Source of the DNA: a virus | Virus record (IMG/VR): IMGVR_UViG_3300038701_001233 | Coordinates: 1-25,468 of that record | Reading direction: 5' to 3' (one strand) | Length of the DNA: 25,468 nucleotides | Shown: positions 1,684-25,468 of the stretch, one piece after another | Position numbering within the stretch: position 1 is the stretch's first letter | How the letters are laid out: each line of letters opens with the position of its first letter | The notes under the pieces: generated by a model | Database searches by the model: none | What the model saw: only the letters and a program-made list of their open reading frames with translations | What the model was told of the DNA's origin: nothing | Program-made: the position numbers and the translations under genes

Positions 1684-2031
1684 TTACTTGCTTAGAAGTC
1701 CACGAATGGACGCCAGCAGAAACTCGCGCTTTTCTTGCGGAAGCTGGAAGTACAGACGACGAAGTTCGTCATAATCCTCCTCGCCATCCATCTTAACGCC
1801 AAGCGCATCAGCCAGGGCTTTAGCGTTCTCTGCGCTGGTCGTGGCGTTCTCGCGTTTCAAGAACTTGTCGAGCGCATGGTAGGGAACGCCGGATTCCCGA
1901 GATAGAGCGGCCTTGCTCATCTCTTGCGCCTTCATGGCGCGCAGAATGCGGTCTCTGAAAGATATTCCAGCCATGGCGAGATAGTACGCCGGTGGAAAAT
2001 ACGCTGCTACACGCCGATTGTCTAACATCAC
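1684..2031 (-). CDS. HTH transcriptional repressor (CI/C1-like immunity repressor)
   Basis: A small 115-aa DNA-binding protein, probably the immunity repressor. A helix-turn-helix of the lambda-repressor/XRE type spans about residues 28-75, with the recognition region around MSKAALSRESGVPYHALDKF followed by LADALGV. The C-terminal part is a short helical tail (YFQLPQEKREFLLASIRG), perhaps for dimerisation. There is no LexA/CI-type autoprotease domain. I prefer the GTG at 2031, with AAGGAGG 9 nt upstream; the adjacent ATG 2028 and ATG 1974 (MAGISF) are alternatives. The gene lies between operator copies and diverges from the Cro-like gene. Without a cleavage domain, induction probably works by another route, such as an antirepressor or unstable protein, but this is inference. 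Confidence 0.8.
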   Translation of the reverse strand: MMLDNRRVAAYFPPAYYLAMAGISFRDRILRAMKAQEMSKAALSRESGVPYHALDKFLKRENATTSAENAKALADALGVKMDGEEDYDELRRLYFQLPQEKREFLLASIRGLLSK

Positions 2032-20756: not shown

Positions 20757-21239
20757 TTGGATTTCAACATCATCAACACCAAAGCGGACGCAGATCGCGG
20801 GTCAATCCTGCACTTCGTCCACCCGCAAACCCGACACCCGCTCTACACTGGCGAGGGTGCCGACGAATTGGGCCGTCTGGTCGATTCATCCAAGCCTCAC
20901 GAGAAGGTCACGGCGCGCGTGCTGGGCTTTGAAAGTGAGCGCGTTCGGGAGGAAGCCAAGCGCGTCCAGAAGGCAGCGGCGAGAACCGGCGTTCATGACG
21001 ATAACGGCTATCGGTTCGCGGCGTCACTCATCACCGAATTGAACGGCGTCTTTGACGGCGACCGGAAAATCGGTGCATCGTTCGAAGACCTGAAATGGTT
21101 CTTCAAGCGGTCGGAAGACTTCGCAACCCAAACAATCGAGTTTGCCAAGGATTCCGAGAATTTTTTCGTGGAGCCGTCGCCCGTCTCATCCTCTACGCGC
21201 GGCAAATCGGCTTCCTCCACTCAACCCCCGAAGGAATGA
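20757..21239 (+). CDS. Tail assembly chaperone, upstream frame (gpG-like)
   Basis: A 160-aa protein starting at TTG 20757, supported by AAAGGA 7 nt upstream; no in-frame ATG is better placed. It begins MDFNIINTKADADRGSILHF and contains RVREEAKRVQKAAARTGVHD and FEDLKWFFKRSEDFATQTIE. It is helical and charged, as expected of a gpG-type chaperone that coats the tape measure protein before tube polymerisation. After residue 137 (Phe) the frame reads VEPSPVSSSTRGK, a low-complexity end, while the -1 frame continues well-formed protein. A slippery heptamer marks the change (21161-21167). Most ribosomes would give this short form. Confidence 0.75.
   Translation: MDFNIINTKADADRGSILHFVHPQTRHPLYTGEGADELGRLVDSSKPHEKVTARVLGFESERVREEAKRVQKAAARTGVHDDNGYRFAASLITELNGVFDGDRKIGASFEDLKWFFKRSEDFATQTIEFAKDSENFFVEPSPVSSSTRGKSASSTQPPKE
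21161..21167 (+). promoter_or_regulatory. Programmed -1 frameshift site T_TTT_TTC
   Basis: Read in the frame of the chaperone gene the codons are AAT TTT TTC, giving the heptamer T TTT TTC, a classical X_XXY_YYZ slippery sequence. A -1 shift leads into the downstream frame that stays open to 21547. The fused product would have 137 + 126 = 263 residues. Confidence 0.8.
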
Positions 21240-21547
21240 AGCAGACCCGCTTTGCTCAACTACAAGAGCAGGCGGTGAAGTGGAAAACCGAACCGGAACA
21301 CGACCTGCCTGACCTTGAGGCAGGTCAATATCTAGTTGACGCCATGTTCAAGCTACGCCCGACACGTTCGAGCGCGGCGGGCATGGTGCCGACAGACTGG
21401 CCGGAAATCGCAGCCTTCGCGGCGGTCACGCAGAGGATAGACGAGCCTTGGGAATGCGAGGCGCTTTTTGATATGTGCCAAGCCTACTACGAGGAATTGC
21501 ACACTGGCGAAAAGCCGTTGGCAATCCCTCCGGTGGAGCGGGGTTAG
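21236..21547 (+). CDS. Tail assembly chaperone, downstream frame (gpGT T-domain)
   Basis: An ATG at 21236 gives 103 aa (MKQTRFAQLQEQAVKWKTEP...), but its AAGGA directly abuts the ATG, poor spacing for independent initiation. The same frame is open from the slippery site at 21167 and there encodes RGAVARLILYARQIGFLHST, which looks like real protein. The product is therefore probably made as the C-terminal part of a G-T fusion, which in lambda-like phages links chaperone to tail tube subunits. The stop TAG overlaps by 2 bp the stop of the minus-strand gene that follows. Confidence 0.7.
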   Translation: MKQTRFAQLQEQAVKWKTEPEHDLPDLEAGQYLVDAMFKLRPTRSSAAGMVPTDWPEIAAFAAVTQRIDEPWECEALFDMCQAYYEELHTGEKPLAIPPVERG

Positions 21548-21873
21548 GGCTTGCAGATGTAAGTGTCGAGCCTTGGCGCTGACCCTGACTTGGGGCGCAT
21601 GATGTGCAGATGCACGGCGTCCCGCCCGGAAGGCCAGAACACGGCGAACCTATCCGGGGACACTTCGTAAATATCGAAAACCAAGCCATCGCTGGTGATT
21701 GGCATTTTCGTGATGCTGTCGCCATTCGACAAAACCAAAGCGCCATCCTGCACCAGTAGGGCGGCGCTGGACTGCGGAAACTCCGGCGAATTCAGGTGCG
21801 TGCCTTCGCAGTTGTATGTTTGGGCGGTTGCGCCGGTCGCGGCGAACATCGCCACCAGTAGAGCAATCTTCAT
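21544..21873 (-). CDS. Secreted protein, moron-type gene antisense to tail operon
   Basis: A 109-aa protein from ATG 21873, with AAAGGGA 8 nt upstream. The first 18 residues (MKIALLVAMFAATGATAQ) are a typical Sec signal peptide cleaved near ATAQ. The mature part (about 90 aa) has two cysteines, near its ends (YNCEG and YICKP), likely a disulfide, and a beta-rich middle (ALLVQDGALVLSNGDSITKM). It would act in the periplasm or be exported. It is the only minus-strand gene in the late region, between chaperone and tape measure, with an intergenic space of 69 bp upstream for its own promoter (weak candidate TTGCCG-N17-TAGCTT). This fits a lysogenic-conversion gene expressed from the prophage. No family is recognised. 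Confidence 0.75.
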   Translation of the reverse strand: MKIALLVAMFAATGATAQTYNCEGTHLNSPEFPQSSAALLVQDGALVLSNGDSITKMPITSDGLVFDIYEVSPDRFAVFWPSGRDAVHLHIMRPKSGSAPRLDTYICKP

Positions 21874-21942
21874 CTTCAATTCCCTTTGTCCTGTCGCTGT
21901 AAAGCTATGGGGTCGAGGCTGTTTCGGCAAGGAACACCGCAT

Positions 21943-24900
21943 ATGAGTTTTGCAGAACTGGTGCTCGACGCAAGAACAGACGGCCTGCGGCGTGCCAAGG
22001 GTGATCTTGACGACCTGCGGAATACGGGCGCGCGCACAGAGCAGGGCGTGTCCGGTTCGATGGGCAAAATGTCCAAGGGCTTCAATGTGGCGGCTATCGC
22101 GGCGGGCAAGATGGCCGTGGCCGCAACCGCAGCAATCGCATCCGTTGCGGGCATCGGCCAGGCCATCGGCGTCATCCGCCAATTCGAGAGCAGCATGTCC
22201 CAAGTCGCGGCCATCACCGGCGCGACGACGGCTGAACTCGCGGCGTTGCGCGACGTTGCCAAGGATCTCGGATCGACAACAGAATTTAGCGCGGCGCAAG
22301 CTGCGGACGGTCTGAAATTCCTTGGCATGGCCGGGTTCAACGCCGCCGAAAGCATCAAGGCCATCCCGGCGGTTCTGGACCTCGCCACGGCCTCGGCAAT
22401 GGGGCTGGCACAGGCGGCGGACATTTCGTCCAACGTGCTTTCGGGCTTCGGTCTGGCGGCTGGAGAGGCGGCACAGGTCGCGGACGTTCTGGCGGCGGCA
22501 TCATCGCGGTCGAATACATCGGTTGCCCAGCTTGGCGGGGCCATGTCCACGGTCGCGCCTATCGCGGCGGCGCTTGATATCAGTTTGCAGGACACGGCGG
22601 CGGCTATCGGGGTCATGTCTGACGCTGGCATTCAAGGTGAGCGCGCAGGGACAGCCCTACGGGGCGTGCTGGCGTCTCTGGCTGGCCCTACAGAGCAGGC
22701 GGCGGATGCGCTGTCCAAGTATGGCGTCACGGTCGCGGATGTGGACCCTGCCACCCGGTCACTGACCGAGATTTTCGGGCTGTTGCAAGAGCGCGGCCTA
22801 TCGACTGCCGACGCGATGGAGATTTTTGGTCGTGAGGCGGCGTCCGGTGCCTTGGTGCTGACAGAGGCAAGCGCGCGGGTTGGCGAGTTTGGCGAGGAAC
22901 TCCGAGGCGCGGAAGGCGCGGCGTCCGACATGGCGTCGATCATGCGGGACAACCTCGGAGGCGCTGCCAACACGCTCATGTCAACCGTGCAGGGGCTTGC
23001 CATTGCCTTGGGAGAGGCGGGGCTGACTGCCGTTCTGGTGGCGGCGCTTGATGGGGCGACTGCGCTTGTTCGTGGCCTGACGATGCTTGTCGAAGGTATC
23101 GGCGCGGCGATTGACTTCGTGCGGCGGCACACGACAGCGACAGAGGCCGTCACTGAGGCGATGCTTGAGCAGACGTTGCAAGGCGGCGACCTGAAAACAT
23201 CGACTGACGATGTAGCGGACGCTTCGAGGAACGCAGCAGAGGCGGCGCTGCAAGAGGCGCGCGCCCGTATGGCGGTGATCGACGCGCAACGCGAAACAAT
23301 GGCTATGAGGGCGATGGAATCCGAGGCGTATCAGAATCTCGAATTTGCCATTGGCGAGGCGACGATTGCTTACACCAACTTCATGAACGAGCAGGAGCGC
23401 AACGGCGGCAGGTTCGCCCCGATGGCGGATGAAGATGCACGGGCGCTGGATGACATAAAGACCCGCCTCATCCTTGCCCGGAACGCACAGCAGGAATTGC
23501 TCGAAAGCGCGACCTTCACCTCCACGGAATACAACAACCTGCAAGGCGATGTTGCGCGGCTGGAGGCTGAACTCGCACTTGCGGCGGCGTCTGGCGGGAA
23601 GTTGCCTGATGAAATCATCCCACTAAGCCCGATCATCACCAGCGCGACCGGCAACGTATCTGCCCTGAAATCCGTTCTAGATGGCGCGGCAGCAGCAGCA
23701 CGGGCTTTGGCTGGGGCTATGGCATCGGCGGCAAGCCAGCTTGGCCCGCTCGGGTCTGCACTGTCTGCGCTTGGCGGTGGCGGCATTCTGGGGCGCGTCA
23801 CGGGCAACGTGGGCGGCATCCTCGGGAACATCATCAACAGCGATGCGGTGGACGCGGCGGGCAACCGCTTGGCCCAGCTTGGCAACACGATGAAGATCCT
23901 GTTCGAGCGGTCGAAAGAGGCGGCGGTTGCGCAGGATCAATTCGCGTCATCGCTTGGCAGCGCAGGCGGCGCGGCGGGCAGTGCCGAGAAAGACGTGAAG
24001 GCCCTTGCCGACGAGATTTCGCGTCTTGAGGACGCAGCCGATCCGACACGCAAATTCGTGCGGGAACTGGCGCGGCTGGACGAATTGCGCGCGCTCAAAA
24101 ACGGCCTGTCCGATGGCGCATATGCGGAAGGCGTGCGCGCCCTGAATGAAGAACTGGTCGAGAGCACGCCGCTCTTGCAGGGCGTCAACGACGCCTTCGG
24201 GAACATGGTCGATTACATGTTCGACGGCTTCAAGGACGGGATGAAAGGCATCCTGAACATCTTCGTCAACAGCCTGAAGCAAATGGCGGCGGCGGCGCTC
24301 AAGAGTCGCATCACCATTGGCGTCGGCATGGCTGGCGGCGCGGGCGGTGCGGCAGCAGCGGGCACACCGGGCATGGGTGGCGGTGGTTGGCTGTCGGCGC
24401 TTGGCAGCTTCGGCGGAGGCGTGGGGGCCGGGTTCAGCCAAGCCATCGGAGCAGGCAGCGCGGGCATCTTCAACGTCATGGGCAATGCTCAGGCGGCGGT
24501 CGCGGCAAGCCAAGGCGCGGTCAGCGCGTTTTCTGCCACGGTCGGCGCGGCACTGCCCGTCATTGGCGCAGCGGTCGCGGGCTTCACGCTCCTGAAATCC
24601 GCCATCGGCACCACGACCAAGTTGACGAACGCCATCGAAGGCCGGTTTGAACTGGCGGGTCTGACCGGCGGCGGCGAATACGACCTGAAGGAAAATGACG
24701 GCTGGTTCTCGAAGGGCATCGAAAAGAACTTCGAGGCTTGGGAAGGAAGCTGGGCCGAGGACATCGGACGTCACGCGGACGAGACATTCAGGGAAATCGC
24801 GGGGCAGGTTCGGCAATCCATCACCGACATGGGCCTTGAGGTGCAGGACTTCGTTCACGACTTCGACTTCCAATTCAAGGAAGGCTCGCTTGAACCGGGC

Positions 24901-25468
24901 GCGCTTTATACCGTGGTCGAAGAGGAAGCCCGCAAGGCCGGTGATGCAATGCTGAAAGCTGCGCTTGAGGCGGCAGGGCTGGCGCGCGAAGGCGAGACCG
25001 GCGCGGAGACCTTGCAGATCCTGAACCAAGCGATGAACACCGTGAACGGCACGTTGCTCTTGTTCGGCCAAAGCATGATCGAGGCAGACGCCAATATCGC
25101 GGGCGGGATGCGCAGCCTGATTGAAATGTCGGGCGGGCTGGATGCGTTCAACACCAAGGTCAGCACCGTTTTCGAGGGAATGCTGACCACGCAGCAGCAG
25201 ACCGAACGGGCCACGGCAGTCGCTCAGACAGCCTTGGACGGGTTCAACAGCACGTTTGAGGAACTCGGAATTGTCCTGCCCGAAACCCACGCCGGGTTCA
25301 TGGACCTCCTGAACAGCGCCGACCTGACGACCGAAGGGGGCCGCAATCTCTACGCCGCCCTGCTCGACGTGGCGGATGAGTTTGTCACCGTCAACGGCAC
25401 GGCGCAGCAAGTTGCCGACGCTGCGGCGAATGAATTGGTCCCGGCGCTTGAAGATACAGGCGATGCAG
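21943..25468 (+). CDS. Tape measure protein, partial (runs off right edge)
   Basis: An open frame from ATG 21943 (AAGGA about 9 nt upstream) to the window end: 1175 codons visible, no stop. Residues about 70-290 match the TP901-1-type tape measure core: TEFSAAQAADGLKFLGMAGF, then AADISSNVLSGFGLAAGEAA and QGERAGTALRGVLASLAGPT. A hydrophobic Gly/Ala-rich part near residues 790-850 (GVGMAGGAGGAAAAGTPGMG) may cross the host membrane during DNA entry. Long helical stretches (ARMAVIDAQRETMAMRAMES) fit a rod. The protein sets tail length and is the substrate of the chaperones encoded upstream. The true length is unknown. Confidence 0.9.
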   Translation, partial: MSFAELVLDARTDGLRRAKGDLDDLRNTGARTEQGVSGSMGKMSKGFNVAAIAAGKMAVAATAAIASVAGIGQAIGVIRQFESSMSQVAAITGATTAELAALRDVAKDLGSTTEFSAAQAADGLKFLGMAGFNAAESIKAIPAVLDLATASAMGLAQAADISSNVLSGFGLAAGEAAQVADVLAAASSRSNTSVAQLGGAMSTVAPIAAALDISLQDTAAAIGVMSDAGIQGERAGTALRGVLASLAGPTEQAADALSKYGVTVADVDPATRSLTEIFGLLQERGLSTADAMEIFGREAASGALVLTEASARVGEFGEELRGAEGAASDMASIMRDNLGGAANTLMSTVQGLAIALGEAGLTAVLVAALDGATALVRGLTMLVEGIGAAIDFVRRHTTATEAVTEAMLEQTLQGGDLKTSTDDVADASRNAAEAALQEARARMAVIDAQRETMAMRAMESEAYQNLEFAIGEATIAYTNFMNEQERNGGRFAPMADEDARALDDIKTRLILARNAQQELLESATFTSTEYNNLQGDVARLEAELALAAASGGKLPDEIIPLSPIITSATGNVSALKSVLDGAAAAARALAGAMASAASQLGPLGSALSALGGGGILGRVTGNVGGILGNIINSDAVDAAGNRLAQLGNTMKILFERSKEAAVAQDQFASSLGSAGGAAGSAEKDVKALADEISRLEDAADPTRKFVRELARLDELRALKNGLSDGAYAEGVRALNEELVESTPLLQGVNDAFGNMVDYMFDGFKDGMKGILNIFVNSLKQMAAAALKSRITIGVGMAGGAGGAAAAGTPGMGGGGWLSALGSFGGGVGAGFSQAIGAGSAGIFNVMGNAQAAVAASQGAVSAFSATVGAALPVIGAAVAGFTLLKSAIGTTTKLTNAIEGRFELAGLTGGGEYDLKENDGWFSKGIEKNFEAWEGSWAEDIGRHADETFREIAGQVRQSITDMGLEVQDFVHDFDFQFKEGSLEPGALYTVVEEEARKAGDAMLKAALEAAGLAREGETGAETLQILNQAMNTVNGTLLLFGQSMIEADANIAGGMRSLIEMSGGLDAFNTKVSTVFEGMLTTQQQTERATAVAQTALDGFNSTFEELGIVLPETHAGFMDLLNSADLTTEGGRNLYAALLDVADEFVTVNGTAQQVADAAANELVPALEDTGDA

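Follow-up and report, generated by a model that had tools for sequence, protein, structure and literature searches.

A proposed antisense slot for exchangeable, predicted-exported moron genes at the tail chaperone/tape-measure border

Introduction

HK97 gp15 (NP_037709.1), a superinfection-exclusion moron of an Escherichia phage, is encoded between the frameshifted tail chaperone genes and the tape measure gene, and appears in the HK97 record as a small separate gene annotated as a moron product. The gp15 protein reportedly acts on DNA injection, at the membrane, and escape from it is reported for HK97 hybrids carrying a different tail tube and tape measure (PMC10883804). Ltp, a superinfection-exclusion lipoprotein of Streptococcus phage TP-J34, reportedly acts through the tape measure protein (PMC10883804), and Tab, of Pseudomonas phage JBD26, is a small prophage-expressed moron of the late operon that targets the tape measure (PMC10884400).

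Here, we analyze a 25.5-kb virus record (the window, by which we mean the whole stretch of DNA) whose plus strand holds packaging, head and tail genes, and whose chaperone/tape-measure border carries a minus-strand ‘cargo’ gene. This gene lies at the same border as gp15, and the likeness is one of position; gp15 differs in being encoded on the plus strand, in having a putative terminator of its own and in being 62 aa long by its annotated coordinates. Ltp is, by description, a comparable prophage-encoded exported protein (export being a prediction for the window cargo), but a Gram-positive surface lipoprotein. Tab is likewise a small moron inside the late operon, but sits elsewhere in that operon and concerns tail assembly inside the cell rather than the envelope. 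Individual morons are already well known; what is new here is an antisense, exchangeable port for predicted exported proteins of disulfide type. Our literature search, with many subscription papers outside its reach, found no published description of an antisense version of the slot.

Results

Cargo gene and its neighbors

The cargo gene separates a chaperone gene read in two overlapping frames from the 5′ part of a tape measure gene (Table 1). The chaperone matches PF23812 just under the Pfam cut-off (E 6e-6) and the tail assembly chaperone family phrog_8233 (E 0.006). Across positions 21548-21942, only the minus-strand cargo frame, among the six, is free of stops, and no coding signal is seen in the longest plus-strand ORF of this gap (21695-21946). 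The cargo coding sequence has a GC3 of 0.74 and a positive codon score, 0.13 per codon, which is below the 0.18-0.40 of other phage genes; its GC is 0.58, vs 0.61 for the window.

A preliminary description of this DNA had proposed a minus-strand gene at this border that converges on the chaperone gene with overlapping stop codons, has its own ribosome site, and encodes a Sec signal peptide and two cysteines. We find the ORF, a 4-nt overlap of the stops and the ribosome site in the sequence, and our own rule likewise predicts the signal peptide, with both cysteines retained after cleavage. The start at 21942 given there appears to lie too far upstream, since it would bury the signal peptide behind 23 additional residues. 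The likelier start is the ATG at 21873, which has AAAGGGA upstream and lies 69 bp from the tape-measure start.

Table 1 Features of the cargo locus and of the window
Feature	Coordinates	Strand	Basis
Cro/C1-type regulator	1684..2031	-	PF13443, E 1.1e-6, above cut-off
Tail assembly chaperone, two overlapping frames (20757-21239; -1 frame ending 21547)	20757..21547	+	PF23812, phrog_8233
Convergent overlapping stops, TTAG: cargo TAA (minus) and chaperone TAG (plus)	21544..21547	.	Sequence; 4-nt overlap
Cargo (moron) CDS, 109 aa, orphan, predicted exported	21544..21873	-	ORF; same-position minus-strand exported ORFs in 18 relatives
Sec signal peptide codons, residues 1-17 (predicted)	21823..21873	-	Heuristic score, home-made rule, not SignalP
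Cargo ribosome site, AAAGGGA	21881..21887	-	Sequence
Promoter-like element, TTGCCG-N17-TAGCTT (-35, 21925-21930; -10, 21902-21907)	21902..21930	-	Sharing among carriers
Tape measure gene, 5′ part, runs off window	21943..25468	+	PF10145, E 1.6e-44; many PHROG tape-measure matches

An in-frame slippery heptamer, T TTT TTC, occurs at 21161-21167 within the chaperone frame overlap, and is likely the site of a -1 programmed frameshift like that of lambda G/GT. This heptamer also precedes the tape measure gene in L094, L035, L055 and L142. In L021, L023, L027, L028, L030 and L039, the last 33 residues of the chaperone are repeated in a separate short ORF before the tape measure, as if the 3′ end of the chaperone gene had been duplicated.

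An orphan protein with a predicted signal peptide

The cargo protein begins with MKIALLVAMFAATGATA, followed after the predicted cleavage point by QTYNC. Its n-region is short and basic, its h-region is uncharged, and the cleavage motif is ATA. Here and in the relatives, we identified signal peptides with a home-made rule that passes those of DsbA and OmpA and rejects LacZ. With cleavage after residue 17, the mature protein keeps cysteines 22 and 107.

Searches of Pfam, PHROGs, PADLOC and NCBIfam returned no match to the window protein, nor did searches of phage and plasmid records or scans of viral and genome contigs. A search of 391 genomes from the order of a Roseobacter carrier yielded no homolog either, although an empty result with no positive control says little. 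AlphaFold gives an all-beta model of low confidence (mean pLDDT 53.5); a PDB fold search with this model gave nothing below E 0.2, and a profile search of solved structures gave nothing meaningful. Thus, no family or fold match in these resources points to a specific activity. The YxC motif at both ends of the protein had suggested a lysozyme-inhibitor-type beta barrel; we dropped this idea given the low model confidence and the empty fold search.

Homology between the window cargo and that of L029 was also considered and rejected because the mature parts are dissimilar: the full-length match (E 4e-4) is driven by the signal peptide, and the mature parts align at E 0.78. A three-sequence profile built from the L029 cargo and the homologs it has in Rhodobacteraceae fails to retrieve the window protein. 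These homologs, which carry signal peptides, occur in two Rhodobacteraceae genomes (L203:1477-1800 and L204:1396-1761), the first adjoining ABC transporter genes, suggesting from sequence comparison that the L029 cargo may have been exchanged with host chromosomes.

A recurrent minus-strand slot with changing contents

Relatives were collected via the tape measure, the major capsid protein and a tape-measure profile, and later via two diverged tape measures. A minus-strand ORF for a predicted exported protein occupies the chaperone/tape-measure border in 19 distinct phages or prophages: the window, L005, L010, L029, L040, L064, L073, L086, L092, L094, L098, L109, L114, L140, L142 (a lipoprotein), L177, L217, L219 and L241. 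Tape-measure starts were called heuristically, with a few corrected by hand (L092, L098), and L183 was left out of the count because its start call is uncertain. In many carriers, the stop codons of the cargo and chaperone genes overlap or are almost adjacent, and most other relatives have no minus-strand exported gene at this border. Contents differ even within the nearest trio, the window, L005 and L006, whose tape measures are mutually 73-79% identical: L005 has an unrelated exported cargo and L006 has no minus-strand exported gene.

In 135 dereplicated loci, a strict definition gives 13 minus-strand exported ORFs in the 98 kb of border sequence vs 6 in the other 1,598 kb, the background being the rest of the fetched loci and mostly late-gene DNA. 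This enrichment is 35-fold (binomial p 1.5e-12), a value that, like the other counts and p values given here, should be read bearing in mind that the carriers share ancestry to some degree.

By comparison of mature sequences, the 19 cargo proteins fall into about 15 mostly unrelated families. L005/L219, L010/L142/L217 and L098/L114 form multi-member families, and the others are single. Nevertheless, exactly two mature cysteines are found in 18 of the 19 (L092 has four), vs 13 of 129 ordinary proteins of 80-170 aa encoded at the same loci. This signature fits export and disulfide bonding, as far as sequence can indicate, and its presence across the cargo proteins argues that these ORFs are genes.

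A shared promoter-like element

Between the cargo and tape measure genes, 9 of the 19 carriers (the window, L010, L040, L064, L092, L140, L142, L177 and L219) share the pattern TTG-N20/21-TAGCNT, with TAGCNT ~30-40 nt before the cargo start. The pattern occurs in none of about 120 non-carriers (Fisher p about 2e-9, the non-carrier number being approximate) and has a background expectation of 0.0045 per region scanned. Once the pattern had been fixed, 4 of 6 newly found carriers also had it. Of the 10 carriers without the element, most have only about 18-42 bp between the cargo and tape measure genes, which would place any promoter within the tape measure gene itself. For the majority of carriers, the TTG falls on the sequence complementary to the ribosome site of the tape measure gene (in the window, AAGGAA at 21929-21934, overlapping the cargo -35). 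Its conservation could therefore have either of two causes, a caveat that does not extend to TAGCNT or the spacing.

A scan upstream of the window cargo found no sigma-70 consensus at the threshold used, and a consensus scan after its stop found no minus-strand terminator-like site. Heat-shock-type and EcfG-type readings of the element were dropped, as by eye they misfit most carriers.

Plus-strand counterparts

In gammaproteobacterial relatives, the same border holds plus-strand genes for signal-peptide proteins or lipoproteins; between these genes and the tape measure there is often a hairpin resembling an intrinsic terminator. The plus-strand cargo genes of L120, L129, L160 and L188 resemble minus-strand cargo in their border and in three common families (L188 with L005/L219, L129/L120 with L010/L142/L217, and L160 with L241), and differ from the window cargo in orientation. 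Enterobacterial-type loci also differ from the window in their leader and in having a terminator before the tape measure. Their leader has GGGGATAGGGAT directly before the start codon, preceded in several of these loci by TTGTCG-N15-19-TACGAT. Behind a near-identical leader, L119, L120, L123, L128, L130, L131, L134 and L135 carry differing plus-strand genes, many for lipoproteins, and leader and hairpin are retained even in some loci without exported cargo. Phage phiLM21 has a plus-strand lipoprotein-like gene and a terminator-like hairpin at the same border (L002:14035-14724).

Discussion

The moron placement that the preliminary description had assigned to the cargo gene is well supported, because the gene is absent in close relatives, the slot is swapped, a promoter-like element lies upstream and the phage family is temperate. 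Temperate growth is indicated by the Cro/C1-type regulator in the window together with relatives, several in number, that reside in bacterial chromosomes. We therefore favor, as probably correct, an explanation in which the gene is exchangeable moron cargo in a fixed antisense slot, with a product proposed to be exported and to act at the envelope. Comparison of relatives had been suggested as a check, with conservation as a virion protein in all of them counting against a moron; we looked for such conservation and instead find the gene absent or replaced at the same locus.

How might the cargo work? In a lysogen with a silent late operon, a putative promoter at 21902-21930 would drive the minus strand, and the 109-aa product would be exported by Sec, cleaved after residue 17 and oxidized to form a C22-C107 disulfide. 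We infer expression, export and the disulfide from the features described above. In the envelope, the mature protein could then make the cell respond differently to other incoming phages, most likely by impeding genome entry that depends on the tape measure, as reported for HK97 gp15. Exclusion activity is the weakest step of this mechanism. It is a guess drawn from predicted export, location and the analogy with gp15, and we put superinfection exclusion forward as the favored effect, plausible though somewhat less likely than not. A direct tape-measure target is weakened because the cargo families do not follow tape-measure similarity.

The main rival to exclusion is a function in host fitness, in which the slot would hold captured host periplasmic proteins that alter the envelope, stress responses or surface of the lysogen. 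The L029 cargo does have Rhodobacteraceae chromosomal homologs outside any obvious prophage context, no cargo protein matches a PADLOC defense model, and the cargo is chemically diverse beyond export and cysteines. The slot nonetheless adjoins the tape measure, its sole well-studied occupant, HK97 gp15, excludes phages, and the window protein has no host homolog in the genomes searched. On this evidence, we regard a benefit other than exclusion as a serious but somewhat doubtful alternative.

If the minus-strand transcript acted mainly as an antisense RNA that represses the chaperone gene or late operon in the lysogen, the protein would be secondary. The cargo gene converges on the chaperone gene with overlapping stops, and with no minus-strand terminator found in the consensus scan, read-through would be antisense to the chaperone. 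However, a role of the RNA alone needs no signal peptides, ribosome sites or paired cysteines in unrelated proteins, and the gammaproteobacterial relatives have the same cargo families on the plus strand. Antisense RNA as the principal function is thus improbable; antisense regulation of the chaperone as a side effect of the moron is possible.

A spurious ORF might account for the lack of any homolog of the window protein in our searches and for its codon score below that of other phage genes, but we think this very unlikely given exported ORFs at the same position and on the same strand in 18 other phages, mature-sequence homology within cargo families, an aligned promoter-like leader and strand-specific enrichment. 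Equally far-fetched is a late lytic or virion-associated protein encoded backwards by chance: the gene does lie within the structural operon, but most relatives that have these tail genes either lack it or encode an unrelated protein in its place, and signal peptides are unusual in virion proteins.

More broadly, a fixed reversed slot, a common promoter-like element and predicted exported two-cysteine cargo together amount to a rule rather than a one-off annotation, and this rule predicts where unknown envelope-acting lysogen genes may be sought. The slot gives the impression of a port reserved for genes that modify the envelope of the infected cell. In its widest form, which we offer as conjecture that may well need revision, widespread temperate phages, mainly alphaproteobacterial, would use a conserved promoter at this border to drive swappable small exported disulfide proteins that guard the envelope against rival phages, with the same families on the plus strand in gammaproteobacterial relatives. 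The about 15 uncharacterized families are candidates for superinfection exclusion in alphaproteobacteria, and several are present in prophages of sequenced strains. Carriers among such strains include Roseobacter sp. HKCCD6576-2, Roseovarius sp. MMSF_3281, Oceaniglobus ichthyenteri YLY08 and Pelagibacterium lentulum B2.

Some other minus-strand genes are found at a distance from the tape-measure border. In L061/L062 (13357-13662), one such gene, ~3.4 kb after the capsid gene, encodes a homolog of the L129 cargo family and hints at a second slot; in L137/L138 (6590-6946), a homolog of the L109 cargo, likewise on the minus strand, is encoded ~2.6 kb downstream of where the tape measure gene starts and possibly marks another. 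The head genes of phiLM21 are interrupted by a small gene on the minus strand whose product has no signal peptide (L002:9395-9688).
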